From NCBI RefSeq assembly GCF_000003815.2, contig NC_049984.1, forward strand, positions 15,382,158 to 15,446,157: a DNA stretch of 64,000 nt, given 5' to 3'. Each line of letters starts with the position of its first letter. Positions within the stretch are counted from its first letter, which is position 1. A model generated the notes under the pieces. The model made no database searches, was not told the DNA's origin, and was given only the letters and a program-made list of their open reading frames with translations. This document shows, piece after piece, positions 11,609 to 63,708 of the stretch. Position numbers and translations under genes: made by a program. This DNA comes from Branchiostoma floridae. Lineage: Eukaryota; Chordata; Leptocardii; Amphioxiformes; Branchiostomatidae.

Positions 11609-14600
11609 GTACAGAACAGGGGCCGGCGACACAAGTGGGCGATAGACTTCAGTCACAGGTACTGTTGGACTTATCTGTGAGGTTTTTCAAATATAAATGT
11701 TTCTATAGAACACCAAGAACAATCTGAAGTGTGTTTGGGCGCTGAAATGACGGACGTTGTTGATGAAATTCTCATTTTTGTGCAGCGTCATGGGGGAGGG
11801 GGGGCAGATTATCGTATTTTTTGGTGATATCAAAATGTACATGAAAAACCTCCGCTTTCTTACTTTCCAGTCTTGAAAACCTGCTAGAAATTATCAAAAA
11901 CTGTACATAGAAGATGATGTGCCATTTGCTTAATGTTCAACCAATGAAATAATGAAGCAGTGATCAACTGAAAAGGAAAATTACATATTTTTGTATTTTA
12001 ACCTAGTGCAAGGGGACAACTCGGCACCAAGCCTCAAAGCTGACATAGATCAGCAAGCAGTGGTGAGAAATAAAACAGTGTTTAATAATCAGACTGAGAC
12101 TGAGTGTTTACCATGCCCATCCTACAGGAGAGGTGATCGACAGATCCAGCCGACCTCTGACCTCCCGTCACCTGTCGGGTACACGGACAAAACTGTGACG
12201 GACGTGTCGGCCAGGGACAAGGACTCCAGTCTGGTGGCTAAGGTCAGGACTGTTATAATTGGTTGACAGAAAATGTGTCTGGAACTATATAGTCTTTACC
12301 TAACATTAGTAACAACTAATTTGATATTAAATTGGTTGTTATCTTCTATATTGTCTATTTTTACTGTCAGATCTAACCATATCTACTTTCTGGATACATA
12401 CGTCTAGCCCTTCCTGATAGTGATAAATTATTCAGTCTTTAAACTGAAAAGATCAGTTCTGTGTTCAATTTGTGCTTTGTATTGTAGGTATTCATGCATC
12501 TTCACTGTAATTGGCACCTCAAACACATCATGTTACTACACAACGTAATACATGTACAATGTATCTTAATACAAAGGTACTAGTAGTATGTACATGTAGC
12601 GCATAGAGACAATGGGAAAGGCGGGCAAAAGACAATACAGATCTAGACAAAAAAATTTTGCTGTGGTTCTAAGTTTGTGGTAAAGCAGTGAAAACTGCAA
12701 CATAAAACTACTGCAAACATTTCTGCATTGGCAGTACTGTCTACATGTATGCATGCAAATTGGCACATATGTGTAGTATGGCATTGAGCAGTACTAGTAG
12801 TATCCATTGTTTGATTATACTGTTGCTGGGTTCCCTGACACAGGGGTAGGCAGCAGTCGACTAGTCTTCACACAGCGCTTCCATGCAGCTCTGTCCAGTG
12901 GATCCACCCTTGTTAGACTGCACACATTCAGAGCCTTGGATGTTGCCTTGTGTCCCTTAAAAATTGAAACAGTCACATTCATAATGTACACGTTTGTATT
13001 TCATCCACACATGAGAGCCTTGAATGTTGCCTTGGGTCCCCTGAAACAGTTTCATCCATGTTTGTATTTTCTCCACAGAGAGCCTTGAATGTGGCCTTGG
13101 GTCCCCTGAAACAGTTTCATCCATGTTTGTATTTTCTCCACAGAGAGCCTGGGATGTGGCCTTGGGTCCCCTGAAACAGTTTCATCCATGTTTGTATTTT
13201 CTCCACAGAGAGCCTTGAATGTGGCCTTGGGTCCCCTGAAACAGTTTCATCCATGTTTGTATTTTCTCCACAGAGAGCCTGGGATGTGGCCTTGGGTCCC
13301 CTGAAACAGTTTCATCCATGTTTGTATTTTCTCCACAGAGAGCCTGGGATGTGGCCCTGGGTCCCCTGAAACAGTTACCCATGAACCTGTTCATCATGTA
13401 CATGTCTGGAAACTCCATCTCCATCTTCCCCATCATGATGGTTGGGATGATGTTCATACGTCCTGTCCAGGCCTTCCTCTCTGTCAAGAGCAGTAAGTCC
13501 TACTTCTTATTCAGGGCTCGAAATATCTTTTTCTGCATACCTGCACTGGTGCAGGTAACATTGGAAATTACCTGCACCAGACAAATTTTATATGCACCAC
13601 TCTGAATTTAGGAAGTATGGATCATACTAAAATTGTTTAGAAACCATTGCTATTTTTTCTTTTATAATCTATATAGGTGGTAACTGTTATAAGTCAATGC
13701 TGCTAATATAATAATCTCTTCTCTTCCTCATTCTTCCCTCTTGTGCATAAACCTACCAGAATTACCCCTCATTCTGCTACTTTGATTGACAATATTTATA
13801 CAAACACACTTGACTCAAACGTAAAGGCTGGAATCATGGTCACAGACATTTCCGATCACTTCCCAATTTTCTTGATATCTGGATCAGAGGAAAATGGAAA
13901 TGAACCTTTGAAAAATGTTAATTGTTATTCCTATCGTCAGATAAACGAGACGAACAAAGAAAAATTCATTGACTCCCTAACAAACACATCTTGGGATCCC
14001 GTCTTGGTAGAAACAGACACAGAATTGGCTTACGATAAATTTCTTAATACTTTCACTTTACTCTTTGACGAATCATTTCCAATGAAAACAGCAAAAATCG
14101 GCCAACGTTCCCACAGAAAACCTTGGTTGACCCGTGGCCTGCTCAAATCAATTAAGAAGAAAAACAAACTCTATATGAAATACGTCAAAAACCAAACCCC
14201 CCTGAGCGAAAGTACATACAAAGAATACAAAAATAAACTAACTCATTTATTAAGAATTGCTAAAAAGAATTATTACCACGGAAAATTTACGGAAGCGTCG
14301 AAAAATGTTAAGCAAACTTGGAATTTAATTAACAACTTATTAAATCGCTGTGATAAATCTAAAGCAGCTCCACACAAAATACAAACCGGTGCCCGTACTA
14401 TCACAGATAAAAATAAGATGTGCGAAGAATTTAATGATTTTTTTGTTAATGTCGGCCCTACCCTAGAGAGCAAAATACCCATCGTAGCGAAAGATCCCCT
14501 CGATTTCATCAAAACTCATCTGAATAGGCAACTAACGTCATTTGAACCCCCGTCCACTGCTGAAATTTTAGATATAGTACGAAACCTGAAAGATTCCGCT

Positions 14601-17600
14601 GCTGGACACGATGGAATCAGCGCAAAAATACTCAAAATATCCCTACCTTATATTATTTGTCCTCTTATACATATCCTAACATTATCCATTCAGAGCGGTG
14701 TGGTCCCTAAATCAACCAAAATTGCCAAAGTGATTCCTATATTTAAAAGTAATGATTCTACCTCGGTAAGTAATTACCGCCCTATTTCAGTTCTACCGTG
14801 CATCTCCAAAATTCTCGAAAAATTAATATACAATCGTCTTTTAAAGCATTTAGATCAAAATGACATTCTATACAAACATCAATATGGTTTCAGAAGGGGA
14901 TACTCTACTTCCATGGCACTTATTCAATTAATCGAGAAAATTACTACAGCTATCGACAACAATGAATTCACCATAGGGATATTTTTAGATCTAAGCAAAG
15001 CTTTCGACACGGTAAACCATTCTATTCTTCTCAAAAAGCTAAATAAATATGGCATTAATGACACAGCACTCAAGTGGTTTAAGAGCTATCTATCAGATAG
15101 AAAACAATACGTCACCCTCAATGGCTATACATCTTCATGCAAACTGATAAATTGTGGAGTTCCCCAGGGTTCAATTCTGGGACCCTTATTGTTTTTAATA
15201 TATGTTAACGATCTTGCTGAAGCATCCAAAATTTTCTGTTTTATCCTATTTGCTGACGATACAAATCTCTTCCTCTCACATGCAGACTATGATTCGTTAA
15301 TACGTCTAACCAATCAGGAATTAGAAAAAGTCATCACATGGTTCGAAACCAACAAGCTATCAGTTAATATCAAAAAGACGTACTATCTTATCTTTTGTAG
15401 TAAAAACAAGACATATAATAAGAAAAATGCCAATATCTTCCTAAAGAACCTTCCTCTATCCCAAGAATGCCAGGCTAAATTTCTAGGAGTACTCATTGAC
15501 GATCGACTAACATGGAAGCCCCACATTGCTATGATATTAAATAAAATTTCAAAAACTATCGGGATCATAGGGAAAATTAGACATCTTTTATCCCAGAGAA
15601 CCTGTATAACAATATATAACAGTCTAATCTATCCATATCTCATGTATTGTAATATTGTTTGGGGAAACGCCTACAAAACTACTCTACACCCTTTATTAAT
15701 TCTACAGAAAAAATTTCTACGCATTGCGACATGTTCGAGTTTCTATACTCACTCTTCACCACTATTTGAGAAACTTAGAATTTTGAATATCTATGACGTC
15801 AACAGATTTCAACTTGCTCTTTTTACAGCCCAACACATAAACCATACTCTCCCCGATACCTTTGACAGCTTTCTTAATTTTCGCTCGCAGTTTCACAATT
15901 ATCAAACTCGCCAAAGCACAAATCTACACATCCCCCTATTCAGAACCTCTCTTGCCCAAATGTCTGTCAAATACAAGTGTGTTAAAATATGGAATGATCT
16001 TCCCCCCTCCCTTAAGAATCTAACTTCCTCTCTCCCGACTTTTAAACGTAATCTGAAAATCCATCTGTTAATCCATCCGAGCCCCCTGTAGTAGCCACAT
16101 TCTTTTTCTTTTTAAAACATATTATCTTAATTCATTCCGTTATTTGACTATCCTTATTGCATTATTATCATTTTTTAAGTATTATGTTGATTTATTATTT
16201 ATTGTTAAGCCAAACCATTAATTACTTGTTTATCCTTATTACATCATTACCATTTTCGTTGTATTACGTTACTTTATCATTCATTGTTAATTCATACCAT
16301 TAATTACTTGTTTATCCTCATTGTATCATTATCATTCTATGCATTACTTTACTTTATTATTATATATGATAATCAACTTTGTTTAGTTTAAAGGAGGAGG
16401 GCTAAGTATAAGCTTCTCAAGCTTTTTTCCTCCTCCTGCACCTGTTTTATCCATTGTTTTCGTTTTTTGATTTCTTGTTATATTTTGTGTGCGAATAAAT
16501 AAACAAAAAAAAAAAAAAAAAAAAAAATAATATTTCCTATACATCTACTTCAAAGGACATTGTATAAAACCCAGTACATGGACCAGTGCAGGTTAGGTGC
16601 AGGTAGACACTTAGAAATACCTGCACTAACCTGTTATTCCTTACTTACCAGTCCAACAAGAAAAAAACGGTACTAAGTATGTTACAATTTCAAACTTTAT
16701 ATCCATACACAAAATAAAGCGCTGACCAACAAGCTTTTGATCAGTCCTCTGATCCTTCTCAAGTTGAAATGACCCAAAGCTGAAATCACACATCCAGTGT
16801 GAGTGGATCAAACCTTAAAGCCTGCTCTTATACTTACTGTATGAAAGATTAGGAGGCATGCAGTTTATGGCCTCTGCAAGGAAAAAACAAACATACTATT
16901 AGATAAATCTTGTATCCCTTCTCAGTCTCACTCCCCTTTGTCCCACTATTTTATCTTATAAATGAGTACTACTGTACTAGTAATGGTTTTCCATTTTGTG
17001 CTGATGTCCTTCCCCTTTTGAAGTATTTCCCTATAATGAATCAAAATGGAGTGAAATTTCACCTGGGTTCTCCTTTGAGCACTGATTGAAAACAGGATGT
17101 AATCTGTTTATTCTGATGGGATTAACATGCCCAGCAGGTGTGCAGGAGATGAACAGTACACCTTTTAGTGGTGTCCTTTATCTTAAGCACCTGTGGCTCG
17201 TCACGTAGGACTAGGGGTGGATACCGGCTCTCTGTAATCTCTAAGCAGATCCTACGGTAGCATGAGATAGTATCAAAAGCTGGCAAAGAAGTGTTGCCAG
17301 CCTTAGAGTGTGCACTGGCTACCCAATGCACACTCTTAGGCTGGCCCAAAACCTGAGTCCAAAAATAATCAAAGTACAAAAATATGCATTTCTAGTCAGT
17401 TTCTTATTTTGTTATCTGGCCAAAAAGTTTGAATAAAGTGAAACTGATTGCCTCAATCAAACTATATTGGTAAAAGTTCTGTAATAACTGTTGGTTCACT
17501 TTTAAATTTAAGTCAATGAAAAATTTTCTTTGGAAGAAATATATAGTCTTTAAAGGCTTATACTTTATAGTCCTGCGTATCAGTCTTATTTCTCTATGTG

Positions 17601-21567: not shown

Positions 21568-21991
21568 AGGACTGGGTGTACCGGTACAAAACCGGTTTTT
21601 CTTATTGAACCGGTCCGGAAAAAACGGACAAGAAAAATTCGGTGGACCGGATGTTGGACCTATTGGAAAATGAACAGATGATATGATCTGGAATTCACAC
21701 GTTTAAGGGCTTACCTGTTCAAGAAAATAATGAGCGAAGTAGAGTAGAACCTATCGTCATTTCTACCAAGTTTTACTGTCAATTGTACAGAACTGAACTT
21801 GTACGGGTTTAAAACGCCAGTGGGAGTCGAATACTCCACAAAACAGCCTTCTTTGTAGCGAAAAAGACCATTGTTTTGAGTATCGTCCATTCATATGTTT
21901 TCACATAATGAATCAGGTTGGGAGCTGGACCTGATCCTCTGGACCAGAACCGTACCTGAACCTGAATTTCCTGTACCGGTACCCACCCCTA
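21568..21991. mobile_element. MITE, family GTACCGGTAC
   Basis: Begins GGACTGGGTGTACCGGTAC and ends GTACCGGTACCCACCCCT. Shares GGTGGACCGGATGTTGGACC and GACCTGATCCTCTGGACC with the copies at 27584 and 33075. Confidence 0.75.
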
Positions 21992-22338: not shown

Positions 22339-22361
22339 CCTCATTTCATATCATCAACAGA

Positions 22362-22369: not shown

Positions 22370-22479
22370 GAAGGTCGTTCCAGGTAGTTCAGACCGCTTG
22401 GTTGCGCAGTTCAGGCAGTTTGAGAGCATCACATCCTCCGAGTCTCTAGTCGCCACCATCGTTTGCCTTCGGTCTGACC

Positions 22480-25400
22480 ATGTCAGGTGATATAGAACAG
22501 GTTATCAATGCCTCCATCAATGGATCCGTCAACGGTACTGATGTGGACGAGTATGCCGCAGATGTGACCGGGCTACCGGCGGAGGTGTTGGTCGCTGCGG
22601 TGTTCCTGGGGCTCGCCGCCGCCGTGGGCACCCTCAACAACCTGCTGGTCATCATCGCCTTCCTCAGCAGCTTCAAGGTAACATCGCATTGCCGGTGAAC
22701 TATTGAAAACGTTTACTATGTCGTTTACGACAAAAGACCAGTTTCTTACAGTTCACTGAAGTGTCACTGACGAAAGATAGTGGATACTAGCTGAAGCGTC
22801 TGACCGTTTCCAAAATCATATCCAGTTGCTTGAGTAACTGCTTTTTGGCATATCTTATTACCTGGATGTCGAATCTTCATCGACGTTTATGATGTCGTTC
22901 ATGTGTGTACTTTGCTTGTGTTAAATGGTAGAATGAAGTAGACGAGGATCCACAGTGGTGAGGGAAGATAGACGTTAATTGTGTGTGGCGTAACTGGTAG
23001 AGTGTTAGGCTCAGACCTAGAGGTCCCGAGTTCGATACCCGACGTTGTGCTCATGGGAAAGGCACTATACACGATTTTCCTCACTTCACCCAGGTGTAAA
23101 ATGTGTACCTGATTTCGGTCAGAGAGGCAAAATACCACCTTTATCTTGTACGTTGGGTTTTAAACTTCCGAGTGACTGTGCACCAAAAAGGCAGAAAAGA
23201 CTTTCATTAATACTTTCCAGTAAAATACCGCGCCCCGTCCAATTTCTGACGGGGCAGATTTTTAACGAAAAATACGACTGACAGACAACTGGGGCGATTT
23301 TGTCGTTCGGCGAGATCCGGCCGATCTACAAATTTGGCCGGCGTTCGCTCTAATTCTGACGCCGACTTAATAAAAGCTGACGACATCAACTCATCTGGTT
23401 AATGGAGGAGCCTCCAGAATCAAAGTGTCCTACGAAGTTAGCAACATCTAACAACATTATGATTCAAGCAATCCTAACAATGCCCAATGCAAGGTGTAAC
23501 ATGGCCATTGCATTTTCTATGAAATCAAGATATGTTCATCGTTTGTCTTAGGTCCTTTTTGGTAGTTGGTTCTAAAATCCTGAATCTACAAATCGGCATC
23601 GTTGGTTTGGCCTGCTTTGTGGTATTCCTACAGCAAAATATGTAAGCGTCTTTGGCCAAAATACNNNNNNNNNNNNNNNNNNNNNNNNNNNNNNNNNNNN
23701 NNNNNNNNNNNNNNNNNNNNNNNNNNNNNNNNNNNNNNNNNNNNNNNNNNNNNNNNNNNNNNNNNNNNNNNNNNNNNNNNNNNNNNNNNNNNNNNNNNNN
23801 NNNNNNNNNNNNNNNNNNNNNNNNNNNNNNNNNNNNNNNNNNNNNNNNNNNACCTCTTTAGCCATCATTCAAACACAGTGGCATAGAACACATCTAAACA
23901 GCTGGCCCCTAACCACTGGAGTACGCACAAAAACAATTGCCGGCTAGACCATATGAATGTAAACATTACTTGCTTGCAAATGTTACCTCGTTAGTTATCT
24001 CTCATCCTACAGATTCGCACCTCATCGAATGCCCTGATCTTCAACCTGAGCCTTGCTGATTTCCTGCTGTCCGGCCTGGTCCAGTCGTTCACGGTGTTCT
24101 CTCTGGTGACGGGGACGTGGCCGTACTCCGCGCACCTCTGCAGGTTTGTTTTTGTTCAAGAACACATGACAAAGACAATGTAGCGCTGCACTCAAGTTAT
24201 AACAACTTATTTTAACAGCACCACATAACAAAATACAAATAAATAAAGGACTAAGTTAATAAACCTCTGCAGGTTCCTAGCGGCCCTATCGTACATGTGT
24301 CAGGTGGTGATGGCCTCCTCGTGCGCGCTCATCGCCATCAACAGGTACATCTTCATCGTCAGGAGCCTGACCTGCTACAAGACCATCTTCACTCCCCTCA
24401 ACACCACCACAGTAAAATATAATGGAAATCCGTCTTTCCTATGTACCGTTATCCTTGAAAGAAAGAGTTTAACAAAGACGCCTGTGCAATTCCAGAGCAA
24501 GCTGCTAGGGGGCTCAAACATATATCACTAGTCTCTTACATCACAAGCTATCTACCACCAAAAATTCAAGACCATACTATGTCCAGGTCAAACGATATAG
24601 CGCGCAAATTAAAAGTCAAAACTTATTAATTATGCAAATTAGGCCCTTATTTCCATAATGTTAATCTTTCAGGGTTCTTCTCTTTCTTGCAAATACTACA
24701 TGTCGGAATAGTCGTCAAAAGAAACGGAGCTAGTTTATAGACTTTCCTCATTGATTATGCAAATTAGATTCAAACATCCATAATCAATATTCAAATAGAT
24801 GAAGTATCACTGAAGCTATCTACATACAACAAATCATGACGATCCGTCAACCCTATAATACCGTATATTTGCTGTTCCCCAGGAATGGCGGTGGCTACCT
24901 GGGCCGTGGGGAGCCTGATGATCCTCCCGCCGCTGGTAGGGTGGAGCAGCTTCGGCTGGAACACGGACTGCGAGATCGAGAACGTCAACCCCGAGACGTA
25001 CGGCTACGTCTCCTTCTGTCTCATCTTCGTCTTGGTATCTCTGGCCATCACCGGTTTCGTGTATCAAAGAATCTACAGCCACGTCAAGGCTTCGGGCGAG
25101 CGGAGCAACCCAAACGTCCCCCGAAAAGTCATCGCTCGGAGGACTATCCAAAAGACCAAAAACCTTTTCATCATTTGCTGTGTCTTTTGTGTGTTGTGGC
25201 TTCCGGGAGCGCTTGTGTTTTTGATTGATTATAACGCTTCGTTTACGCCGAAGACAGTCCACTTTGTTCTGTGGATACTGTATAACTCTAACCAGGCCAT
25301 AAACCCAGTCCTGTACGCCTTCAAAATCAAAGATTTTCGTACAACAATTCTACGTCCCTTCAGGTATCGCAAGAACATACAACAAGTCCCCTTGGAATTA

Positions 25401-27998: not shown

Positions 27999-28033
27999 AG
28001 TAACAATGCTGAAACCTTCACCCTGTAAATATA

Positions 28034-38570: not shown

Positions 38571-38595
38571 TAATGCCGATAAATTATACCTTACG

Positions 38596-38842
38596 CGTCT
38601 TTAATTTTTGTTATGTTGATGTCGCTAGGCATGGTATAACAACAAGCCGTGGGATGGTAATGGTTAGAAATGATTAGGTACACGTCTTTGATTTTTTCTT
38701 CTGTTGATGTTCTAGGCACGTGATTACAACAAGCCGTGGGATGGTAATACTGAAAAATGATTGGGTACACGTCTTTGATTTTTCTTCTGTTGATGTTCTG
38801 AGCATGTGATCACAACAAGCCGTGGGATAGTAATATTGGGGA
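38596..38842 (+). repeat. Three tandem copies of an 80-odd-bp unit
   Basis: Each copy has ACACGTCTTTGATTTTT…TTGATGTTCTAGGCA…ACAACAAGCCGTGGGATGGT. Confidence 0.8.
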
Positions 38843-38889
38843 ATGAACAGGCATTTAATGTCTTATCATATATCATTAAAAGCACAGTA

Positions 38890-51800: not shown

Positions 51801-54800
51801 GTGATTCTATCATTATGTCAAGGTTAATGACATGATGTCATGTGGCCTAACGGCAAGGTGTTCGGCCCATAACCCAGAAGCCCTTGGTTCAAATCCGTTG
51901 ATATGCCACCGACCTTGTACCCTTGGAAAAGGCATTTTACATTTGACTTTTCTCACTTAACTCATTGCACATTGTAAATGCAGGAGTACCTAGGTTTGGT
52001 TAGGTCTTTCCCAAGGATAGGACTTTATTGGAGGTCTTGTGTTTGAGGAAAGTTCCATACTTCAAGCACATAAAAGAACTCACCACACTTACCAAAAGAA
52101 TAGGGTTCCTTCTTGGTGTGAGTGGATCAATTAGTACATGGGATTGACTAAAATGACTCCTTTTCTGTTTTTCTAAAGCTGACTTGTACATCCTAATTTA
52201 TTTATTTATTTATTTATTGATCTTTATAGGGTAGTCCCTTCAGTTAACGTAGTAACTGATTTCCAAGGGAGCCCTATATACATGTTCGCACAACGACGGG
52301 TTATACCGCCCCTTACGGGGTGACACACCCGTCCGGGTGAATGATGTAGATCACCATGTGGCTGATACGAGACAGAGGTCGCCAGGCCTCCATCCGGGTG
52401 ATTTGAAGTGAATCACCAACTTCCGACAGAAGGATTTGCACCAACGCACACCGCACCATCGCACGTGTGGGGGTTCTTTAACGTGCATGGGGTATGGCTC
52501 TCCCCAGACACGGGACCTCCATTTAACGTCCTATCCGAGGGACGACTCATTTTTCACTTGAGTAAAGTGAGGAAAGTCGTGTCAAGTGCCTTTCCCAAGG
52601 GCACAAGACCGGCAACACGGCAGGCGGATTCGAACCGGCGACCTCTCGGTCACTGGCCGAATACACTACCACTGTGCTACGCGGCCCCACAGTGCTATGC
52701 TGACCTAATCTAAACATTTATGCCATAAATACAGTAGATTTATGTTGTGTTCTTGAGGGAAGTGTCTATGGCACTATTTGGTAAGGTTGTTCAATGTCAT
52801 GACCTTGACCTTGCACACATATCAAGGACACAGCCATCGCCGTGAACAACAGCCTGCTGCGGCTGATCACCACGGAGGACGACCTGTCTGTGCCCACCAG
52901 TCCTGTGGAGGGGGAGGATAAGGACCAGGACAAGGAGAAGGAGAGGGAAAAGGGGTCAGTTAGGATTGGAAAACAATCTATGATGCGAAATTCTTGCAAA
53001 AGGCTTGCCCCAGCACTGGGCCATCCTATACAATTGTACTGGTAATGCATGTTCACGGTGATTTACTTTCTTGGTAGCGGGAAAATGGAGTGTTTGCTGT
53101 GGACTTTTTGTGGTATGCAGTAGCAACCACATAGTTTTATAATAGAATAATGTTTGCATTATTTTTGAGTTCCTGGTGAAGCAGCCACCGCAAACATGAA
53201 ACCACAGTGAACAGTCCTGCATTTACAGTGTCAGACTGAGTACATTTGAATTTTACAACAAAATGTGACGCGTTTTAGAAAAAAATATATAAGACAAATT
53301 AATGTTCAACACTAATAGCTATATGGTCAAGAGAAGTTGGCAACATTCAGTTGAAATTCATTATAAAGCTGTCCCCCTCCTATATTATATTATATAATTA
53401 TTATATACTGCCATGTGTACTACAAAGAAAGGGGTGTTGTGCTTGTGTGGTTAGCAGTCAAGCAATTGAAACTATTGTGTTTTCTATCTTAAAATTCTTA
53501 CGTTAGACTTGCAAACTGAGTGATAGTCTTTTTTGTTCATTGCATTGATGATGATATATTCCAGGTTGATCATAAATGCCAAACTCTTTTGATTTCTTTC
53601 CATCTAGGTTCCTATCTGCCTTCTCTTACAAGTATGCCTTGAAGTTCATTATTCTTTGAAGCTTTATTTGATTTTTGCATTCATCTTTTTGCATTTCTTA
53701 CTTTTCCACTTTTGCTTGAAATTGTTATTCACTTGTTATTCACTTTTGTTAATCACTATCATCCTTTGTAGACAATGTACATTTTTATAATCATTAATAA
53801 TTATTATTATTCTGGGGGAATTTTTGTCAAAAAGAGCTGAAAAGAAAGTTTATCTGCCAATGTATTGGTACATCAGGCATTAGCAGCATTGTANNNNNNN
53901 NNNNNNNNNNNNNNNNNNNNNNNNNNNNNNNNNNNNNNNNNNNNNNNNNNNNNNNNNNNNNNNNNNNNNNNNNNNNNNNNNNNNNNNNNNNNNNNNNNNN
54001 NNNNNNNNNNNNNNNNNNNNNNNNNNNNNNNNNNNNNNNNNNNNNNNNNNNNNNNNNNNNNNNNNNNNNNNNNNNNNNNNNNNNNNNNNNNNNNNNNNNN
54101 NNNNNNNNNNNNNNNNNNNNNNNNNNNNNNNNNNNNNNNNNNNNNNNNNNNNNNNNNNNNNNNNNNNNNNNNNNNNNNNNNNNNNNNNNNNNNNNNNNNN
54201 NNNNNNNNNNNNNNNNNNNNNNNNNNNNNNNNNNNNNNNNNNNNNNNNNNNNNNNNNNNNNNNNNNNNNNNNNNNNNNNNNNNNNNNNNNTCATGATGTT
54301 TGCATTAAAATGACTGGAGTATACTGTAGTATAGATGATGAGGGTGGATATAAAGTTTTTTTACGGAAATACTGTATTGGTGTAAGGGACCGTACGATAT
54401 TTATTGGGGGGGGAGGGCTGGTGCGTTGGAAGTCCGATCAAAAAAATTTTTCATGGCCCTCCCCCCCATCTGAAAAAAAATTAACATGACCCTCCCCCTC
54501 CACCTCAAAAAAATCAACATGGCCCTCCCCCCGACAGGCATCATTAAAAGGGTAGAAAAACAACCGATAGACGTCAGGGCACAAGGGCGCCCGGCGTCCA
54601 ACTGGTACAGCTAGTGTTCTTGCCAGGATTTTTTTCACAGCGTCAGGGCAGGGGTCCGGGGGCTTGCTCCCCCGGGAAAATTTGGATTTTCAAATCCTCT
54701 AAAACAGAATTTCCTGCAATTTGAGAGGAAAATTATGCCCTTGAGATTGGATGCCGTTTGCCTTTTTCACGCCCGTTCCTTAGTAATCGACGTCCGCCCT

Positions 54801-57715
54801 CTCCCCAAAAATACGTCATGATAACTTTATTATTAAAGCACGGGGAATCAGCCGTCCGTGATCTGGCCCGGGTATTATTTGTCCAGTCATGTCTATATGA
54901 AAATTTTGGGTTATTGATGCTTCCAAACAGGGCTCTAGCCAGTGAGTTTGTCAGCCCATGAAAAAATCCTGCCAATTTTTTTCCGGCATTGAATAAAAAA
55001 ATGTCTACCTCGTGCGATCGATGTTGCGCCCTCCCGCATCAAATACTAGTAGTTTTTCCAGAGGATAGAATAACGGCGCCATCACAGCTTGTGTTTTTTT
55101 TTTAATTTTTGCCCTATGATTTTACTCAAATTAATTAAATTGGTCGGGTTTTACACGGGCGGGCCGCGCCGTCATTTTCCACGAGCGTGCGTTTGTCTCC
55201 TGCGACCTCAGGTAACCCCATTTTCGGCATGAAATATTTGCCGGCTGGATTTCTTTTTTACATAGACCAAGAACGTTATACATTATACGAAGGAGGGCGA
55301 TCTGCTGCGTCTTTGGCATTGATCAGTGCCGGTGTAGCCTTCAAGGAGTAGCCAGAAAAGACGTCCGAACGTGCTGGGCGCTGCGATCGACCATCCGTCT
55401 GGGGAGGGGGGCGTGCCGCGCCATGTGCCACTGAGTGCACAGCCGACTCGATCGACGCTTGACAACAATGTTGCGGCCCCTTTTCCGCTGCAAATTTTAC
55501 CCTTTTGAAACAAAAGAAATGTTGTAAATAAAAAATAAAGTTTATAGTTTTGGATTCTTTGGATGCGACGTGGGGTGTGTCGCACATGGGTTCGCAAGTT
55601 GTAAAACGTGCCGCGCTCCGCCCCATGCCCCAGACAACCGGGATGACCGGGAAGTGAACAATTTGAAGAGTCTTTGAAATATAAATTGTAAAGGTAGTAT
55701 TCGTTCTTATAAAGATGGATTTTTAAAAAGATTCCTGATACATTTTGTACACTGGTGGTACAGGTCAGCCTTTCTTTCAAATTTTTGAAAAAATCTCAGC
55801 GCGAGCAGGAGTGCGTCTTTCCAGAAGTTCGAAGACGAAATGACGTATGCCTGGCAGGAACGCTGGTCCGGGGCAGTGCCACTTTTGGGGGGACATAGGG
55901 GGACACACCCCCCGGAAGGTTCTTGCATTTTAGGCTATACAGGAGGCTTATTTTATCAGTTTTAGGGCCATGTCAAGATATCGAAACTAAAAATAGTATG
56001 AACTATTCTTTTAAAAAAATTAACATGGCCCTCCCCCTATCTAAAAAAAAATTAACATGGCCCTCCCCCCACCTCAAAAAAAATTAACATGGCCCTCCCC
56101 CCCTAACGCACCAGCCCTCCCCCCCTGATAAATATCGTACAGTCCCTAACAGTTAAACAATTTGAAAGTAGCCGGTGAGGCTTTGGGACTGGTGAGGTGA
56201 GGTATTAGGTTACTTAGATATGAGTCTTTGATAAACTCCTTGTTAAGAATGCTTTCTGGAACCTTTTTGAAACCATACAATATGCTCACTTCTAAATCCA
56301 GTATTTCTTACACATTGGTGTTATTTCAAGATCAACGTGTGTTTTTTCCACAGATCTTCCGGCATGTTGACGAACTGTTCCCCGTTCTGCTGAAGACTCT
56401 ATCAGACAAGGCTGATGAAGTAAGGTTTCACTAGTAACTACAGTCAAACCTGTCCGAGCGACCACCTCTTCTCAGCGACCACCTGGCCATTTCGACCGCT
56501 TTTTCTCGGTCCCGATTTATTTTCCCATTGACGTAAGCATTAAGCGACCTTTTCTCAACGACCACCTGGCCAACGCGACCGGCCCAAATTGGGACCTATA
56601 ACGACCGCATCATTTTCAAGATTGAGGTTTTCATCAATTTTTTATGATAATTAGCGCGATTTTGTGCCAAAATCGGCCAGTTTGCGTCGGATTTTTTGGT
56701 TAAATTTACAGTTTACACAGTGCGTGTTGTATTTGACATTAAAGACCTCGCTTCTTTGCGTGCGTGCAGTGTGCTTGCTATTGGCCATTAAACACAACGG
56801 CAACCATTTATACTTTGCATCGTGCATGTCTTGAGTCGATACTCTTCTCAGCGACCACCTGTCCAACTCGACCGTTTTTTTCTGGTCCCCCGGGTGGTCG
56901 TCTTGGGCAGGTTTGACTGTATCATCTTCAAGCAACGTTTCCAGTAAACAATCCTTAGGGTGTTATTTGAGGAATATGGTTTTCCTTATAGGACTTACAG
57001 TTTTGTAACTCTGATCTTCACAATTGCTAGTGTCTTTAAGATGACTGATGTCCTCATGTTTCTCATCTCAATCAACCAATCAATCAATCAACCAATCAAT
57101 CAATCGACCAATCAATTAACCAATCAATCACTCACTCGATCAATCAATCAATCAATAGTTCCCTTGCATCATGAGTTGATGCGTGGCGGCTACAGACAGT
57201 TCATCTCAATGCTGGGTTCAAAATGTTTTGTAGAAATGCTTCTAACGATAGCTAAGTTCTAACAATTCCAAAACAATCATTTACATTATCTTGAACTCTA
57301 ACTATCATATTAAAGAAAACTTGGTTTTTGAGGCAACTAATTACTGATGCAGACCTTTTTCCTCAAAGGTTATCCTACTTGACCTTGAAGTTCTAGCAGA
57401 GATTGCATCATCACCAGCTGGACAGAGGGCACGACCTGCCGGGGAGAAGAGCAGCTCCAGCCAAAATCTGGCAACAGGTCCGTTGTTCATCTTTTCTGAT
57501 CAAAACAGTTGAAGGAAAAGACCATACATGTTGCACATCTAGGTCAAAATACAAAAAATAAAATTTCTGTTACAGTACCAAGGTCACATACCAGGGAGCC
57601 CAAAATTGACCTTGACCATTGTCTTCCCAACACCTACCCACATTCCAAATATCATCGTAATCCTCACAGAGGTTCTTGAGTTATGCTGACTGCAAAAATC
57701 CGTAAACACAAAGAA

Positions 57716-57746
<31 letters not shown>

Positions 57747-60700
57747 GATATACCCAAAACTTTATCTCAATTTTTCATGAAGATAAAAATACGCTCAGTA
57801 GATTCTGGTACCATCTTAAACCATAAGCATGTTGTATATCAATGCAACTGGGAACTGTGTAATCAAGACAAATTTGTTTTACGTAGTGTACAAAAGTCAT
57901 TTACAAGGACCAGACGTGCAGAAATCATAAATACCTGCAAAGCTCTTAAACAAATCTTACCTGGTTAGTACAATAACTTGCATATTCTTGTGGGATTGTG
58001 AGACTTGTGTCAGCCAATAGACTGGTCATAACTGCCCATCACACTTAGCAGTTCAATCAATGATAGTATGGCATTAGCAGTTCAGCCAATTAGAGAGTCT
58101 GGTATGTGTTCAAATGTTGTCAATTTTTTTTTTTTTTTTAAATTTTATTTTGCATTGCTNNNNNNNNNNNNNNNNNNNNNNNNNNNNNNNNNNNNNNNNN
58201 NNNNNNNNNNNNNNNNNNNNNNNNNNNNNNNNNNNNNNNNNNNNNNNNNNNNNNNNNNNATTATGTTCGCGGTTTTCGCGGCAGCCGCTTCACCGCGAAT
58301 TTAAAACCACCGCGAAAATTTTTCCATAACAGTAAGAAATTACAGTGCATGGTCCTACCGCAAAAAGTCCATTTTCCCGCTACCACGAAATTAAATCCCC
58401 GTGAACTTAAATGCATTTACAGTATACTGCTGCTGGGATCCTTAACATGGGTAGGCAGCAGTCTTGCAAAGCTCAGTTCAATAGTGGAAACGCAAGGGAA
58501 ACACCAAAGAAATACACTCAGCTTAAATGGAGATATCCCCTGTGTGCATCTTGTCTTTTTTCCCTAGTCAGAGGGTTTCTAATGTTTGCTTTGGAGGATA
58601 CATATCCGAAAGGTTTCTTTATCACCAATTAGAGACTGTGATTAGTCTCAAAGCAGACCCTACGGTGCCTTAGAGATAGTATCAAAGCTGGCAAAGGAGT
58701 ATAGCCGGCACCCGGGTCTGCCTCCAGTCAGCGAGAAAAGACGCTACTAACATCCAAATGTTGTCTAATCAAACTGTGCTTGCCGAGTAGGTGTTAATTA
58801 CCCTCCGCCCGGGATGGCTCGTGCGCCCCTGCTCAGCCATGCACCGTCTCACGGGAAGTCACGTCACGGGTTCACCTACGGTGACCGTTACGGGCAGATT
58901 TGAAAATGCCGGCAACGATGGAGGCAAGAGTGCGAGGTGTTTTCCACCATGTCTGGGGATTCGAGGCGAAGAAAACACAACTCGGTGCCATTTTGGCCAG
59001 TCTGAGAGGCGAGGACGTCTTTGTCGGCATTGCCACCGATCAGGGGAAATCCATATGCTACCATAGAAAGCCATAGCTGCTAGGCGGGAGCAAACATCTG
59101 GTCCTTGACACAGTTTTTGCCGGAGGAAATTACAAAATTGCAGAACAAATTAGGAATAAACTTTTTGGAGACAAAATAAAATGGCAGCATGCTTGGCTTG
59201 TTGTGGTTTTCTCTACCACATCCAAACATAACAGAGAGGATTACGATCAGGCGGCAGGTTTTTAAACCTCATAACATTAGTATGATGTTGTTATATACAT
59301 GTATCTACATTGAAAATTGTTGTTTGTTTAGCATTATTTTCAGACTTTAACTCGAATTTAAATTGAATATTTCATGTATTGTGGCGCTAGTTCTGTAACA
59401 GTTACGTTGTGATGCTGTCAGATTTATCAATCCGGTGCCATTTGGCGCGAACCTCCCACTGGGACGTGCACGCGGGTCACTAACTTCATCCAGTGTAAGT
59501 CGCTCGTAAAGTCATTAGCACATGGCTACAGGGTGGAGCAGCAACACCATTGTTGAATAGAAACGCTCCACCCTGTTTCAGTGCAGGCAGACCTCCGGTG
59601 CCCCTTTGGCCGGCTATCTCCCTTTGGTCGGCTATACTCCTTTGCCAGCTTTGAGACTATCTCTAAGGCACCGTAGGGTCTGCTTGGAGACTAGACTGTG
59701 ATTCCAATGTGTTTCTTATGAGTTTCATGGTAATTAACCGACGAGTGCCTTTACCTAGGAGAGCATAGCAGACAGTAGCAGGTCCTTGTGTTTCTGTGGG
59801 TGGAGCAATTGGTCATGGCTATTTGTTATGTTTTCCCTAGGTTTCACATGTGTATCCTTCAGTCATACATTGGAATCACACAACAGAAAGGTGTCCCCGT
59901 ATGTGTCTACTGTATGACTGTGGCACTGTGCTTTACACCATGCTTTCATGCGACTCTGTCTGGCAGTTTCACCCTTAGTAGACTGCACAATTTGATGTCC
60001 AGCCATGTCTGTTGGTAAAACTTGACTGAGACAATGCTCCATGCCCTAATATCTTCCCTCTAACTTACAGACAGCTGTGCCTGTTGCTGAATGCGGAGGC
60101 TATATTCTGTACCAATGTTACCCCTGTACCCAACAGACAGCTTTGCCTGTTGCTGAATGCGGAGGCTATATTCTGTACCCTGATGTTACCCCTGTACCTT
60201 ACAGACAGCTGTGCCTGTTGCTGAATGCGGAGGCTATATTCTGTACCCTGATGTTACCCCTGTACCTTACAGACAGCTGTGCCTGTTGCTGAATACGGAG
60301 GCTATATTCTGTACCCTGATGTTACCCCTGTACCTTACAGACAGCTGTGCCTGTTGCTGAATGCGGAGGCTATATTCTGTACCCTCATGTTACCCCTGTA
60401 CCTTACAGACAGCTGTGCCTGTTGCTGAATGCGGAGGCTATATTCTGTACCCTGATGTTACCCTGTACCTTACAGACAGCTGTGCCTGTTGCTGAATGCG
60501 GAGGCTATATTCCGAGCCCTAGCTGAGATCCTGCTGGAAGAAGAAGACCTGCGATTCGCTGCCATCATGGTGCAGACCCTCAACTCCATCCTGCTCACCT
60601 CCACAGAGCTGTTTGAGCTGAGAACACAACTCAAGGACCTCAAAACAAAGGTAACAGCAGACAGCATATCATATAGTTAAGTATGTTCCGAGTATGCATG

Positions 60701-63547
60701 TGTATAGGAATTGTTGGCAATATGTTAAAGGTAACAAAGCAGACAGTTCTCATCTTGACCTTTGTCTCAATTTGCATAACGATATTTAGAGGTGATTTGT
60801 TCATGTTTCAGGGAACTTCACCTTTGACACCAATTTTATCTTTAGAAGAATGATTAGCTCATTTTCCTATCAAATTGTTATGGAAAATTTCTTCACTAGC
60901 AATAGCTGAAAATGACACCATATTTTCTCTGGTTTAGTATAATTGGCAAGCGTAACAAATGCTATCGGTAACATTTCTTTCAACAGTTTACTGTAAATGC
61001 ATTTAAGTTCGTTCGGATTTAATTTCGCGGAAGCAGGAAAAAGGACTTTTCACGGTGGTTTTAATTTCGCGGTAGCACCATGCACTGTAGTCTCTTACTA
61101 CCATGAAAAAATGTTTGCGGTGGTTTTAAATTCGTGGTAAAGTGGCCACCGCGAAAAATGCGAACATTAATCCACCGCGAATATTTCTGCATTTACAGTA
61201 CTAAAACCTTTTTCTTCCAAGTGATTTACAGTTTTGGCTACATTGCTTATATTGTAGGTACATCATTATGATAGTTTATTGACAGTATTGAATAAGTGGG
61301 CAGCTTACTTATGTTTCGATTCCTACTGAAAAATGATTTAATGGTGAAATGTTTTGTCTACAGGAGAGTTGTGACCTGTTCTGCTGCCTGTACCAGTCGT
61401 GGTGCCACAATCCCGTGGCTACGGTGTCCCTCTGTCTGCTCACTCAGAACTACAGACACTCCTGCGACCTACTGCAGCTCTTGTATCCTTCTCACAATAG
61501 AGCCATTATTGTAATATCAGCTGCCATCTTGGTGTCCCTATTCGCATATCAGTGAAGCGTATTCGTGCAAACATTTTCAGAATTGTTAAAATCTTCTCTG
61601 ACCCTCTCAAATAACAGTTATTGAATGTCTATAGCTCAAAATAGAGAATTCCAGTTCTTAAAGTTGCCAACAAAAGTAACACTATGAAAATGCTTTGCAG
61701 GCTCGAGATACGATCCATTGAAATGGAAATAGGTGCTTCATTGAAATGGAAAGTGACTGAAAATGTACTTTATTGTTCTCCATACTTATAAACATTACAG
61801 TGGACAAGACTGCAAGATTGTACTTGTTCAAATACCTGGAAACATTCATTGGTAATATTGCTTGCTCAAATGACAGTATGACATAGAGAAGTTATACGTC
61901 TTGCCATCTACATTTTGTAAGAAGCGTACACAATGTTTTCAGGAATACCGGTATCTCCTGAAAATGTCCAAAAGACGAATATGAATGCATGTACAAATAC
62001 AAAATGTGTTATTTTACATGCATAAAAACTAAAAATGATTCCTTTACGTGAGACCAGTGGTGACCTGGAGGTGACAGTGGAGTTCCTGACAGAGATAGAC
62101 AAGTTGGTACAGCTGATAGAGTCTCCCATCTTTACATGTAAGTCAACACTCATCACTAAATATTATGGTTAACAGTAAAAGAAGTAACACATGTACATTC
62201 AGGTGCAGACACTATAGGAGGTAGGACACTACAGAGAGTACAGACACTATAGGCCGTACAGACATTATAGGGGGTACGGACACTACAGGGGGTATGGATA
62301 CTTCAGGGGGTACGGACACTACAAGGGGTATGGATACTTCGGGGGTATGGAAACCACAGGGTAGAGTCACCATAGAGGGTACAGAAACCACATCAGATAG
62401 ACAAAACATGGGATATGGACACTTGGAGACTAAAGGCATAATATTTCCCGGTCATATAGGAAAACAATGTCATTGGCTACTACATGTACATGCATGGATG
62501 AGAGTTACAAAGTCTGTTTTACCATACAGTATTGATACAAAAACAAGAAAGGCAGCAAGAACTTTACAGGCTCACGTCAATGATTACTTTGAAGATGGGT
62601 GCTGCACTTTTTTTCAGACCTCAGACTACAGTTACTGGATGCCCAACAGAATGCTTACCTGATCAAAGCCTTGTACGGACTCCTCATGCTGTTACCACAG
62701 AGCAGAGCATTCGACACTCTCAGACACAGACTGGACTGTCTACCAGCATCACATCTTATTCCACAGCACCAAAGGTACAAATGTAACTACAATCTGTATC
62801 TGTATCTATATAGTCGGTATAACCGCCCTTTGGCGAAACACACCAGTCAATGTGATAAGAATATGGAGCGACAAGATATGATTATGACCTGGTGAGCCAG
62901 TGTACTGGTTAATAACTTCCCATGCAGGACTGATCCCATGGCAACATAAATGCCTTATGATATAAACTCTGCTATTACAGGCTCAGATGAACATCTTGCT
63001 TATGAATGAACTTGCCTCATTAATCGCAGGCCCATCAGTGCTTTGATTGAAATTTTGATCATACAGCAAACAAACAGCGTGCAACACAGCATGCACAAAC
63101 ATCTGTTTATTTTTGCATTATCTAGTATATATAATGATGATAGTTTCTTCGAATGTTTGGTTGGTATTCGGTGATGCCGTGCTTGCTCTCTACAGACAGA
63201 AGTGACAGATCTTTGATTTCGTACCTGATAAACAAGTCTTGATGCTGAAAGATTTCAGTACACACACTAGGCTGGAATACGGATGACATGCAAGTCCAAC
63301 TACAGAGCAGTAGTTATTGTCAAGTCTGACAACCAATAAGTTTTATCAATGTGGCCTAAAACGATTTTTTCTCCCCACCCCCAGTGTCCAGGCCCCACCC
63401 CCGGAGCAGCGGGAACACGTGGCCAGAATTAACTTCCACCAGCTGATACAGCACTTCCAGCACGTCCAAGCCAAACACAGGACAGCGAAGCAGCGCGTCC
63501 GGCCCAGACACACCGAGGACAGCACACAGAGGCTGGAAGTGCCATGA
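39838..63547 (+). CDS. VAC14: VAC14, scaffold of the PIKfyve-FIG4 complex
   Basis: VAC14 holds the kinase PIKfyve and phosphatase FIG4 together on endosomes and lysosomes to control PI(3,5)P2. Exons seen: 39838-39944, 41322-41472, 47176-47343, 48102-48164, 48530-48637, 49509-49618, 51130-51236, 51609-51746, 52819-52954, 56354-56419, 57369-57477, 60476-60650, 61364-61482, 62058-62137, 62618-62774, 63385-63547, all phase-compatible where adjacent. Matches to human run throughout: [87 protein letters not shown]. The first part is HEAT repeats; the last third is the FIG4-binding domain. About 650 residues are visible against 782 in human. The parts matching human LDGIVQVLN…KTPRK and FYKFMINLL…PFIIR are absent and probably lie in the gaps at 53894 and 58160. 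Start: GCCACCATG, conserved. Two introns are U12-type. Confidence 0.94.
40912..41092. mobile_element. Element with ATACAACACGGTG ends
   Basis: ATACAACACGGTGAATTCC and GGAATACACCGTGTTGTAT are inverted, followed by the TTTTGATGCGAAATGCACC segment shared with 28034-28460. In VAC14 intron 1. Confidence 0.65.
41473..43007. other. VAC14 intron 2, first part
   Basis: A G-run at 41582-41595. A repeat at 41930-42240 includes GGGGCCTTCTGATTGGTCA, which recurs inverted at 46983-47010 near the other end of the same intron. Assembly gap at 42780-42879. Confidence 0.45.
42780..42879. other. Assembly gap (100 N)
   Basis: Run of exactly 100 N, a common placeholder for a gap of unknown size. In VAC14 intron 2. 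Confidence 0.99.
43008..43075. mobile_element. Short ATACAACACGGTG element
   Basis: AATACAACACGGTGTATTCC followed by a short, truncated inside (GGGCCAGGACCGAGGGTGATACGG). Confidence 0.5.
43343..43676 (-). mobile_element. MITE with CAGGGCTTGAAAT ends
   Basis: Inverted copy of the element at 19938-20268, including the shared centre (TAAGAAAATATTTGGGTGCAC and the flanking AT-rich part). A 5-6-bp direct repeat (CAAAT) flanks it. Confidence 0.8.
43677..44904. other. VAC14 intron 2, middle part
   Basis: AT-rich, no supported gene or clear repeat. Confidence 0.35.
44905..45190. mobile_element. Diverged GTTGCACAGTGTGCAACC element
   Basis: Repeated GGTTGCAC / GTGCAACC blocks near both ends and an AT-rich centre. 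The layout resembles the GGGTGCAC elements at 19938 and 43343, but the sequence differs. Confidence 0.5.
45191..47175. other. VAC14 intron 2, last part
   Basis: T/G homopolymers at 45340-45362. 46980-47150 is a repeat with CACCGGCACCGGTGTCGAT and its inverse. It ends only about 35 bp before the exon 3 acceptor. Confidence 0.4.
47392..47881 (-). mobile_element. MITE, family ACAGTCAAACCTG (complete)
   Basis: Ends TACTGTCAAACCTGCCC and GGGCAGGTTTGACTGTA are inverted and bounded by TA. It is a near-identical inverse of 56439-56921 over its whole length, including the part that looks like a frame. In VAC14 intron 3, 48 bp after the exon 3 donor. Confidence 0.85.
49053..49275 (+). mobile_element. 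LINE 3' end fragment with GAT tail
   Basis: One frame reads [20 protein letters not shown], then MGHITKDC and on to WLQYWHGTI, then stop. The C-x-C-G…QT-x2-HI-x3-C pattern is typical of the C-terminus of many invertebrate LINE reverse transcriptases. A short (GAT)n follows the stop. In VAC14 intron 5. Confidence 0.65.
49743..50311. mobile_element. Diverged ACAGTCAAACCTG-family element
   Basis: Starts ACAGTCAAACCTGTATTAGC and ends ACAAGTTTGACTGTAA. The inside has GCGACCACCTGGCC, as in the full copies, but otherwise differs. In VAC14 intron 6. Confidence 0.7.
50312..51129. other. Rest of VAC14 intron 6
   Basis: Nothing recognised. Confidence 0.35.
51237..51495 (+). repeat. (TG)n microsatellite starting at a splice donor
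   Basis: Impure TG repeats fill the first 250 bp of VAC14 intron 7; the donor itself (CAAG|GTGTGT) is the first unit. Open frames on both strands here encode only VC or HT repeats and are not genes. Confidence 0.9.
51840..51990 (+). mobile_element. tRNA-derived SINE
   Basis: Box A-like GGCCTAACGGCAAGG and box B GGTTCAAATCC (51885-51896), followed by CCTTGGAAAAGGCATTTTACA and TTTTCTCACTT, shared with the other SINEs. Inside the AT-AC intron. Confidence 0.6.
52198..52690 (-). mobile_element. Full-length tRNA-derived SINE
   Basis: On the minus strand the head (about 52690-52615) has a tRNA-like region with box B GGTTCGAATCC. It is followed by the GGCACTTGACACGACTTTCC segment and a long body with CACGTTAAAGAACCCCCAC. 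The tail is (TAAA)n, seen as TTTATTTATTTATT at 52198. A piece of the same body occurs at 42650-42700. Confidence 0.75.
52955..53893. other. VAC14 intron after exon 9
   Basis: Contains an eroded TACTGTAAATGC-family piece (about 53050-53230). I found no exon for the missing VAC14 segment. Confidence 0.45.
53894..54290. other. Assembly gap (397 N), probably hides a VAC14 exon
   Basis: Lies between the exon ending 52954 and the one at 56354. The human segment between these exons (LDGIVQVLN…KTPRK, about 50 residues, plus a linker) is found nowhere else in the interval. Confidence 0.8.
54385..56147. mobile_element. 1.76-kb inverted-end element with CCCTCCCC tandem blocks
   Basis: Ends AGGGACCGTACGATATTTAT and ATAAATATCGTACAGTCCCT are inverted and followed by GGGGGG…AGGGCTGGTGCG and its inverse. 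Next to each end are two or three copies of AAATTAACATGGCCCTCCCC, in the same orientation at both ends. The centre (54600-55950) has no recognisable transposase; a 165-codon minus-strand frame resembles nothing I know. Confidence 0.75.
56439..56921 (+). mobile_element. MITE, family ACAGTCAAACCTG (complete)
   Basis: Inverted ends ACAGTCAAACCTGTCCGAGC and GGGCAGGTTTGACTGT, TA-bounded. It starts 20 bp after a VAC14 exon donor (56419). Near-identical to 47392-47881 in the opposite direction. Confidence 0.85.
57060..57160. repeat. (CAAT)n simple repeat
   Basis: Impure CAATCAAT/CCAATCAA units in a VAC14 intron. Confidence 0.85.
57717..57742. repeat. (CA)n microsatellite
   Basis: About 13 CA units at the end of a dispersed repeat that begins near 57560. 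Confidence 0.85.
58160..58259. other. Assembly gap (100 N), probably hides a VAC14 exon
   Basis: Placeholder gap between exons 57369-57477 and 60476-60650. The human segment FYKFMINLL…PFIIR should lie between them and is not in the visible sequence. Confidence 0.75.
58260..58424. mobile_element. MITE, family TACTGTAAATGC (left end in gap)
   Basis: GTTCGCGGTTTTCGCGG … AATGCATTTACAGTA matches 2781-2991; the left end is lost in the N run. Confidence 0.7.
58426..58560. repeat. Dispersed repeat with GCAAAGCTCAGTTCAAT
   Basis: GGGTAGGCAGCAGTCTTGCAAAGCTCAGTTCAAT followed by GGGAAACACCAAAGAAA-type sequence. Related segments at 12829-12890 and 63900-64000. Confidence 0.55.
58643..59693. mobile_element. 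Non-autonomous transposon with long TIRs and 9-bp target duplication
   Basis: About 70-bp inverted ends (TAGTCTCAAAGCAGACCCTA … AAAGGAGTATAGCC and its inverse) and a 9-bp direct repeat GACTGTGAT on both sides (58634-58642, 59694-59702). Long TIRs with 9-bp duplications are typical of Mutator-like elements. No transposase is seen. Diverged relatives at 17210-17330 and 30277-30431. Confidence 0.85.
60071..60475 (+). repeat. 68-bp minisatellite copying a VAC14 exon acceptor
   Basis: Each unit has CCTTACAG plus the first 35 bases of the exon (ACAGCTGTGCCTGTTGCTG…), then TGTACCCTGATGTTACCCC. Decoy acceptors end at 60070, 60136, 60204, 60272, 60340 and 60408; the true one ends at 60475. Steps are 66, 68, 68, 68, 68 and 67 bp. 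The decoys leave the exon sequence after GCTATATTC. Confidence 0.94.
60989..61200. mobile_element. MITE, family TACTGTAAATGC (complete)
   Basis: TA-bounded, ends TACTGTAAATGC and GCATTTACAGTA, inside rich in CCGCGAA. In the VAC14 intron before exon 61364. Confidence 0.75.
61483..62057 (+). other. U12-type GT-AG intron of VAC14
   Basis: The donor GTATCCTTC differs from the U12 consensus at the last base only. TTCCTTTAC (62039-62047) fits the branch consensus with one change and puts the branch A 11 nt before the AG. The splice joins TT|T into Phe and gives [12 protein letters not shown], matching human QKFGDLEVTVDF. Confidence 0.82.
62138..62617. repeat. VAC14 intron with imperfect short tandem repeats
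   Basis: 62210-62400 holds imperfect repeats of about 20 bp of the type GGGGGTACGGACACTACAG. The long open frames here are due to the repeats. Confidence 0.65.
62775..63384. other. Last VAC14 intron
   Basis: Includes one unit (62790-62850) of the TCTGTATCTATA…AACACACCAG repeat that forms the array at 29263. Nothing else recognised. Confidence 0.45.
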
Positions 63548-63645
63548 ACAGCACTCATAGGACAGCATGCACAGACTGGAAATGCCATGAACAGCACTGA
63601 AAGGACAGCGCACACAGACTAGAAAATTGTGATGAGTGAAAACAG
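63516..63645 (+). repeat. 43-bp tandem repeat over the VAC14 stop codon
   Basis: Unit 1 (63516-63558) contains the last ten codons and stop (AGGACAGCACACAG…GTGCCATGA). Unit 2 is 63559-63601 (keeps GCCATGA) and unit 3 starts at 63602 and decays. A second, 33-bp repeat (ATGAAAACAGCACAAAT) follows at 63650-63708 in the 3' UTR. Confidence 0.88.
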
Positions 63646-63708
63646 TGAAATGAAAACAGCACAAATTCATGAAAGCAGCAACAATGAAAACAGCACAAAT
63701 CTATGAAA

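Follow-up and report, generated by a model that had tools for sequence, protein, structure and literature searches.

Tandemly duplicated splice borders in EMC4, VAC14 and other lancelet genes and their probable origin in undirected local duplication

Introduction

In amphioxus, tandem repeats that copy intron–exon borders, named mirages, have been published for Adh3, the globins, troponin C, and PGBD5 (PMC3087553; PMC3902484). In the account given for Adh3 and the globin genes BflGb6 and BflGb9, minisatellite-like border copies affect acceptors as well as donors, the units measure 10–160 bp, many copies retain AG/GT, and the repeats were suggested to be a source of new introns; the data described there suggest regular splicing, and one mirage of the globin study is noted there as misassembled in the draft genome (PMC3087553). 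For lancelet PGBD5, repeats of 60 and 108 bp were reported to overlap splice sites, with troponin C and Adh also cited; the copy number differs between two versions, and re-examined and new reads confirmed the sequence (PMC3902484). Introns of amphioxus VCBP3 are described as holding complete or partial exons that resemble their neighbours, some with splice sites (PMC2632668). In potato, an RdRp gene was reported to have gained an intron via tandem duplication across an intron–exon boundary (PMC4974935).

The mirage phenomenon is therefore already known in amphioxus, and EMC4, VAC14, a kinesin, two TCP1-family genes, and an SNF-family transporter are further genes with it. Similar to the Adh3 and globin mirages, the EMC4 and VAC14 units contain both intron and exon sequence across the border, stand in tandem, and retain AG in copies; unlike in that paper, other genes are concerned here, and the cases are counted against a random-placement control. 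The PGBD5 repeats likewise lie on splice sites, but they involve a pair of exons in a single gene and are called imperfect (PMC3902484). The potato duplication also spans an intron's 3′ end together with the beginning of an exon, and differs in that a new intron was detected there (PMC4974935). The VCBP3 exon copies are likewise intronic; however, the description of them does not present them as border minisatellites (PMC2632668).

Results

Border arrays in EMC4 and VAC14

The window analysed is a 64,000-nucleotide stretch of the Branchiostoma floridae genome. On its forward strand, an EMC4 acceptor mirage extends from 12992 to 13376 (65-bp unit × 5.9, 95% matches; TRF, and copies read in register). 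Its unit consists of about 27 bp of intron end including AG, followed by about 38 bp of exon start. The exon with the duplicated acceptor lies at 13339–13492 on the same strand (PF06417, E=1.1e-22; EMC4 chains in PDB, best E=7e-21), and the true acceptor is taken as the last copy, contiguous with the exon body, where a tandem copy of the border matches at 39/40 bases. Four of the six upstream copies keep AG, with an acceptor score of 6.3 that equals the score of the true site; in these four, identity is 100% over the intron part and 92–97% over the exon part. Degenerate copies at the 5′ edge of the array (12930–13014, forward strand; repeat-family search and register reading) have lost AG, which is absent ahead of the exon-like part both at 12930 and at 13014. 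The copies vary in an ordered way, TTGAATG alternating with TGGGATG.

The VAC14 acceptor mirage (60056–60512, forward strand; 68-bp unit × 6.8, 95% matches; TRF, and copies read in register) is built alike, about 31 bp of intron end being followed by about 37 bp of exon start. The exon concerned lies at 60476–60650 on the forward strand (PF11916, E=2.3e-17); a search of PDB for VAC14 gave no match. The true acceptor is again taken as the last copy, AG is retained in all six upstream copies, and a tandem copy at border 60476 matches at 36/40 bases. Each of these two acceptor arrays matched a single place in the genome in a search that leaves aside simple words and those that are very common, and an origin from dispersed repeats was rejected for both.

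A further array in VAC14 does not concern splicing. The stretch 63386–63548 (forward strand), open in frame to a TGA and with an approximate acceptor position, had no Pfam match of its own; from its place and order, we take it to be the last VAC14 coding exon. A 43-bp array (63516–63625, forward strand; × 2.6, 83% matches; TRF and repeat-family search) covers the stop codon and the 3′ flank, and the stop end at 63545 has a tandem copy matching at 34/40 bases; this array marks the coding end and no splice border. Strict splice-site cut-offs yielded one candidate for extra VAC14 exons, and the listing was redone with looser ones.

The first-pass annotation had counted two borders and one exon end turned into minisatellites, and one more intron with a duplicated AG|GT border. 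The first three correspond to 13339, 60476, and the stop end at 63545. The fourth was not confirmed: the array perhaps meant, 38592–38846 (TRF; 87-bp unit × 2.9, with AG|GT words), precedes the first VAC14 coding exon by about 1 kb, is touched by no mapped exon, and exon prediction gives none nearby. Tandem copies within 320 bp were sought at 44 exon ends of 22 exons (EMC4, VAC14, and a 7tm receptor), several of which are placed only approximately; apart from 13339, 60476, and 63545, the remaining 41 ends reached a tandem similarity of at most 23/40.

Chance overlap within the window

Two of the 11 TRF arrays of the window (unit of at least 20 bp) overlap one of 40 mapped splice borders. Placing whole arrays at random gives 1.09 expected overlaps (P=0.295). 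Placing one unit length gives 0.25 (P=0.023), an expectation that is too low since some VAC14 exons could not be mapped, and a P value that is post hoc since the window was chosen for these arrays. Within the three gene spans only, two of eight arrays overlap a border, against 1.44 expected by whole array (P=0.44) and 0.31 by unit (P=0.036, equally post hoc). The two unit-based values are a nominal excess that speaks against a neutral reading.

Further cases in the genome

Border copies recur elsewhere in the genome. In a TCP1-family gene (L026), an array of 78- and 112-bp units covers an acceptor; in a kinesin (L031), a 151-bp unit × 2.7 does so; and a second TCP1-family gene (L025) has a donor copy 134 bp downstream. 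In the SNF-family transporter (L053), a donor copy lies 168 bp downstream; this case was found via a profile table, then read, and stands outside the sample count given below. The exon share of the unit varies widely, from about 38/65 in EMC4 and about 37/68 in VAC14 to 92/151 in L031; in L026 it is 6 bp. For six families, the profile tables (60, 134, 14, 142, 103, and 118 rows; 571 in all) were scanned by eye for adjacent rows with a common start or end, and among the matches listed at least two places with duplicated rows were seen, in the kinesin (C2:31967610-31968130) and in SNF (C7:214065-214349); the tables hold the best-scored candidates (e.g., for p450 the best 92 of 1138), and short exon pieces would escape them.

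Border rate in a genome sample

The rate was estimated from a sample of the same 513-Mb genome with 123 profile-anchored exons, 233 mapped borders, and 89 kb. The exons are those of the 194 TCP1 and kinesin rows that lie in compact genes; two kinesin rows, being decoy copies, were excluded from the exon count, and 4 acceptors and 9 donors under the score cut-off were removed. A few multi-stop spans (e.g., L042, L043, and L044) fuse two exons, leaving inner borders unmapped. A tandem copy (28/40 identical bases) is present at 3 of the 233 borders, two acceptors and one donor (1.3%, 95% interval 0.3–3.7%), as opposed to 3.2% of grid positions outside exons (168 of 5308). Kinesin L031, which is among the three loci, had been fetched after the profile table had revealed its duplication; subtracting it leaves 2/223 borders and 2/6 events at threshold 30, with the expectation not recomputed. 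Mirages thus recur in the genome, at about 1% of borders.

The first-pass annotation had stated that chance seldom centres a minisatellite on a splice site, and had proposed comparing tandem copies at borders with those at randomly shifted positions, where a large excess at borders would support its claim. When borders and other positions were compared in this small sample, no excess was detected with TRF arrays, 40-base windows, or events, even though the unit null of the window alone gave P=0.023. The sampled genes are dense in exons, and of six TRF arrays two lie at borders, where 1.30 are expected with units placed at random (P=0.385) and 2.91 with whole arrays, so that such a position is not rare by chance. 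Events on a border number 5/14 at threshold 28/40 (expected 3.94 by unit, P=0.356, and 7.23 by array), 3/8 at 30/40 (2.12 by unit, P=0.354, and 4.72 by array), and 3/8 at 32/40 (2.16 by unit, P=0.365, and 4.35 by array). The ratio of observed to expected border events is 1.4, with a 95% interval of 0.3–4.1, so a moderate, even about four-fold, excess is compatible with a sample of this size. At each threshold the count lies slightly above the unit expectation, which points away from a neutral reading.

In 20 random 10-kb stretches, 72 exons predicted ab initio had a tandem copy at 4/144 borders, compared with 1146/15829 other positions; with a predictor that placed 56 of 102 training exons exactly at score 8 in two-fold testing, these stretches give weak support to the absence of a border excess. 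One of their 31 TRF arrays (L002 3224-3304) overlaps a predicted border, that of a weak exon lying mostly inside the array.

Predicted coding consequences of decoy copies

Most decoy acceptors score like the true acceptor. Every AG decoy tested would lead to a premature stop: four in EMC4 (of six upstream copies), six in VAC14 (of six), two in the kinesin (of two), and in L026 the single upstream copy in which an AG was seen. The stops are met either inside the copies themselves or in an out-of-frame reading of the true exon; a distant stop, past the end of the mapped exon, also follows the true sites of the kinesin and L026. Within the EMC4 and VAC14 arrays no GT scores above 0.5, a low cut-off, and so no cassette exon is evident there. 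One copy in kinesin L031 could make an in-frame 99-nt cassette exon with a weak GT at its end, and the two donors of SNF L053 are 168 nt (56 codons) apart with an open frame between them.

Discussion

The lancelet mirages are probably local tandem duplications that happened to span an intron–exon border and later grew into minisatellites, undirected and tolerated as the exon-joined copy stays intact. They would arise from the undirected local duplication and unequal exchange that also produce the other intronic and intergenic arrays of the genome, reaching borders about as often as other intron sequence and not aimed at splice sites. Whenever a duplicated stretch contains a single border, one intact border would stay joined to the exon body (in the last copy at acceptors, in the first at donors), which may be why such arrays survive: the gene should keep its function if the spliceosome passes over the detached copies or if their products are destroyed by the cell. 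The very variable offset of the border within the unit fits undirected placement.

The main alternative is a border-directed process, in which paused transcription, R-loops, or chromatin would make borders duplicate more than other intron DNA. The post hoc unit null of the window, counts a little over the unit expectation at each threshold, and the nine gene families with border repeats (Adh3, globin, troponin C, and PGBD5 from the papers; EMC4, VAC14, kinesin, TCP1, and SNF here) favour it. However, the sampled borders are not enriched, the border may stand anywhere in the unit, and acceptors and donors are both affected. Since TRF arrays, 40-base windows, and events agree in giving no excess in this small sample, border-targeting was rejected as the reading, and we regard it as unlikely. 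Of the proposal that border duplication is a common genome-wide process, the further cases (L025, L026, L031, and L053) bear out the recurrence; the preference for borders is not borne out.

It is somewhat less likely still that the decoys are functional, serving as alternative exons or, as acceptors, reducing output through nonsense-mediated decay. Signals as strong as the true site at most decoys, the possible kinesin cassette with its weak GT, and the open frame to the SNF donor copy would suit such a role. Against it stand the stop that ends every AG decoy tested, the absence from the EMC4 and VAC14 arrays of any GT scoring over 0.5, and the regular splicing suggested by the Adh3 and globin data as described (PMC3087553).

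An assembly artefact, with copy numbers raised where reads from two haplotypes were collapsed or mis-joined, is very improbable, for despite the misassembled globin-paper mirage (PMC3087553) and the differing PGBD5 versions (PMC3902484), the EMC4 copies differ in an ordered way with degenerate edge copies, and the reads re-examined and newly obtained for PGBD5 upheld its sequence (PMC3902484).

Undirected duplication in exon-dense genes suffices for the sampled cases, so the arrays need not be aimed at borders, and the count corrects the intuition that they must be; the mirages at amphioxus Adh that the first-pass annotation had mentioned are in print, for Adh3 (PMC3087553). If about 1% of borders carry copies, the genome is rich in tandem decoys, of acceptors and donors alike, whose local signals are similar, and both the choice among near-equal splice sites and how often a duplicated border gives rise to a new intron or exon become testable questions. 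We propose tentatively that about one in a hundred splice borders bears near-perfect decoy sites beside the true one as a product of undirected duplication, that these may form a natural experiment on a spliceosome choosing the exon-joined copy, and that a few copies, such as the kinesin cassette and the SNF exon extension, might already be able to serve as in-frame alternative exons.

Arrays over exon borders in the window

Two tandem arrays in the window are built on intron-exon borders, with units of 65 bp (12992-13376, 5.9 copies; TRF) and 68 bp (60056-60512, 6.8 copies; TRF). The first lies over the acceptor of an EMC4 exon (Pfam and PDB), the second over that of a VAC14 exon (Pfam). In both, each copy consists of the intron end and the first ~37-38 exon bases, and only the last copy continues into the remaining exon. 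Two variants alternate among the EMC4 copies, and those at the 5' edge are degenerate and lack AG, as expected from growth by block duplication with old edges. A 43-bp unit is repeated 2.6 times over the VAC14 stop codon (63516-63625; TRF). In EMC4, VAC14, and a 7tm receptor, 22 exons were tested at both ends, several of these ends being approximate, and no other duplicated splice border emerged in the window. The VAC14 set is incomplete, some exons not having been found, and its members outside the Pfam matches are putative VAC14 exons; the sequence is interrupted by gaps at 53894-54290 and 58160-58259. The array at 38592-38846, upstream of VAC14, is at most a candidate border. By eye, its three copies have a common short open frame, with ~10 residues nearly alike, and it may represent an exon border, old or untranslated, from a transcript outside the mapped set.

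Other features of the window were also recorded. The 7tm_1 receptor gene has several exons at 22465-25330, with a PF00001 match at 24840-25679 and the other exons assigned by coding score and position. The EMC4 intron holds a 794-codon open frame (13707-16091), a putative LINE-type reverse transcriptase, and less than 60 bp separates it from an 82-bp tandem array downstream (16149-16361; TRF). Two arrays 1.5 kb apart (54440-54532 and 56013-56102) have nearly the same 32-33-bp unit, A-rich and then CATGGCCCTCCCCC. The 183-bp unit at 29303-29690 fits a ~60-bp period too (TRF), so the array apparently has a higher-order structure, with three diverged sub-units per unit.

Recurrence and placement of duplicated borders

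Such structures, termed “mirages,” are described in the amphioxus literature for the globins BflGb6 and BflGb9 and for Adh3 (PMC3087553), and the same phenomenon for PGBD5 and troponin C (PMC3902484); VCBP3 introns are likewise stated to contain partial exons with splice sites (PMC2632668). No genome-wide count was found in the open-licence literature searched, though one may exist. Within the 513-Mb genome holding the window, exons were located by Pfam profiles (60 rows for TCP1 chaperonins, 134 for kinesins), and the compact genes among them were taken as 31 stretches totalling 89,251 bp, with 123 exons, 119 acceptors, and 114 donors mapped. Six TRF arrays with units of at least 20 bp occur in them, two of which cover an acceptor (the TCP1-family stretch L026 and the kinesin L031), and comparing windows of 40 bases, a more sensitive approach, additionally revealed a donor copy in L025, also TCP1-family. 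Duplicated borders thus number 3/233 (95% interval 0.3-3.7%), or 2/223 excluding L031, which was fetched after its profile table had displayed the duplication. Outside this count, an SNF-family gene (L053, 134-420), spotted in the profile table and then read, carries a second copy of an exon end with its donor, 168 bp downstream of the first; ~90 bases are nearly identical, and the frame between the two donors is open. A random stretch (L020) carries long satellites with units of ~203-215 bp (1-1756 and 6402-9988). The two intron-exon border arrays noticed in the first-pass annotation are real, recurrent, and of an already named kind, with further cases elsewhere in the same genome.

The annotation had also held that such arrays are rarely centred on splice sites by chance; targeting of borders is not supported by the sample. 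In the same stretches, with 28 of 40 bases identical, a tandem copy is present at 168 of 5308 non-exonic positions (3.2%) versus 3 of 233 borders (1.3%); the counts are 206 and 4 at 26/40, and 150 and 2 at 30/40. This comparison is biased towards introns because every array copy counts, so random placement of one unit per event is the fairer test. By this test, 3 of 8 events fall at borders at threshold 30 (2.12 expected, P=0.354), 5 of 14 at threshold 28 (3.94, P=0.356), and 3 of 8 at threshold 32 (2.16, P=0.365), while placement of whole arrays gives expectations above the observed numbers (4.72 at threshold 30). In the window alone, which was picked for containing these arrays, 2 of 11 lie at borders, versus 1.09 expected under array placement (P=0.295) and 0.25 under unit placement (P=0.023). 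No border excess was detected across the 31 stretches and 233 borders; with an observed/expected ratio of 1.4 (interval 0.3-4.1), a moderate excess is possible and a strong one unlikely.

Decoy acceptors and candidate exons

Detached copies are mostly not weak acceptors, as scored with a matrix built on 102 exons from the same genome. In EMC4, four decoys have exactly the score of the true acceptor (6.3). The true VAC14 acceptor scores 1.17, which ranks at the 8th percentile among the training sites; five of its six decoys lie above it and one below (0.53). Decoys reach 4.86 and 5.05 versus 5.65 in kinesin L031, and 2.24 versus 3.9 in L026. Splicing to any AG-bearing decoy tested (4 EMC4, 6 VAC14, 2 kinesin, and 1 L026) would run into a stop codon, either within the copies or, after a shift of frame, within the true exon. 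The spliceosome might therefore favour the copy adjoining the exon body, for instance via exon definition; alternatively, aberrant products may be made and then destroyed. For Adh3 and the globins, data are reported to suggest regular splicing (PMC3087553).

It is proposed that an undirected duplication of a stretch holding one border would keep an intact border on the exon body and could therefore be neutral. Intron gain out of such a border duplication is described for potato (PMC4974935). Judged from sequence, one of the kinesin copies might serve as an in-frame cassette exon of 99 nt that ends at a weak donor, and predicted use of the downstream donor in the SNF gene would add 56 codons in open frame. 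The kinesin cassette and the SNF exon extension are candidates for exon birth.
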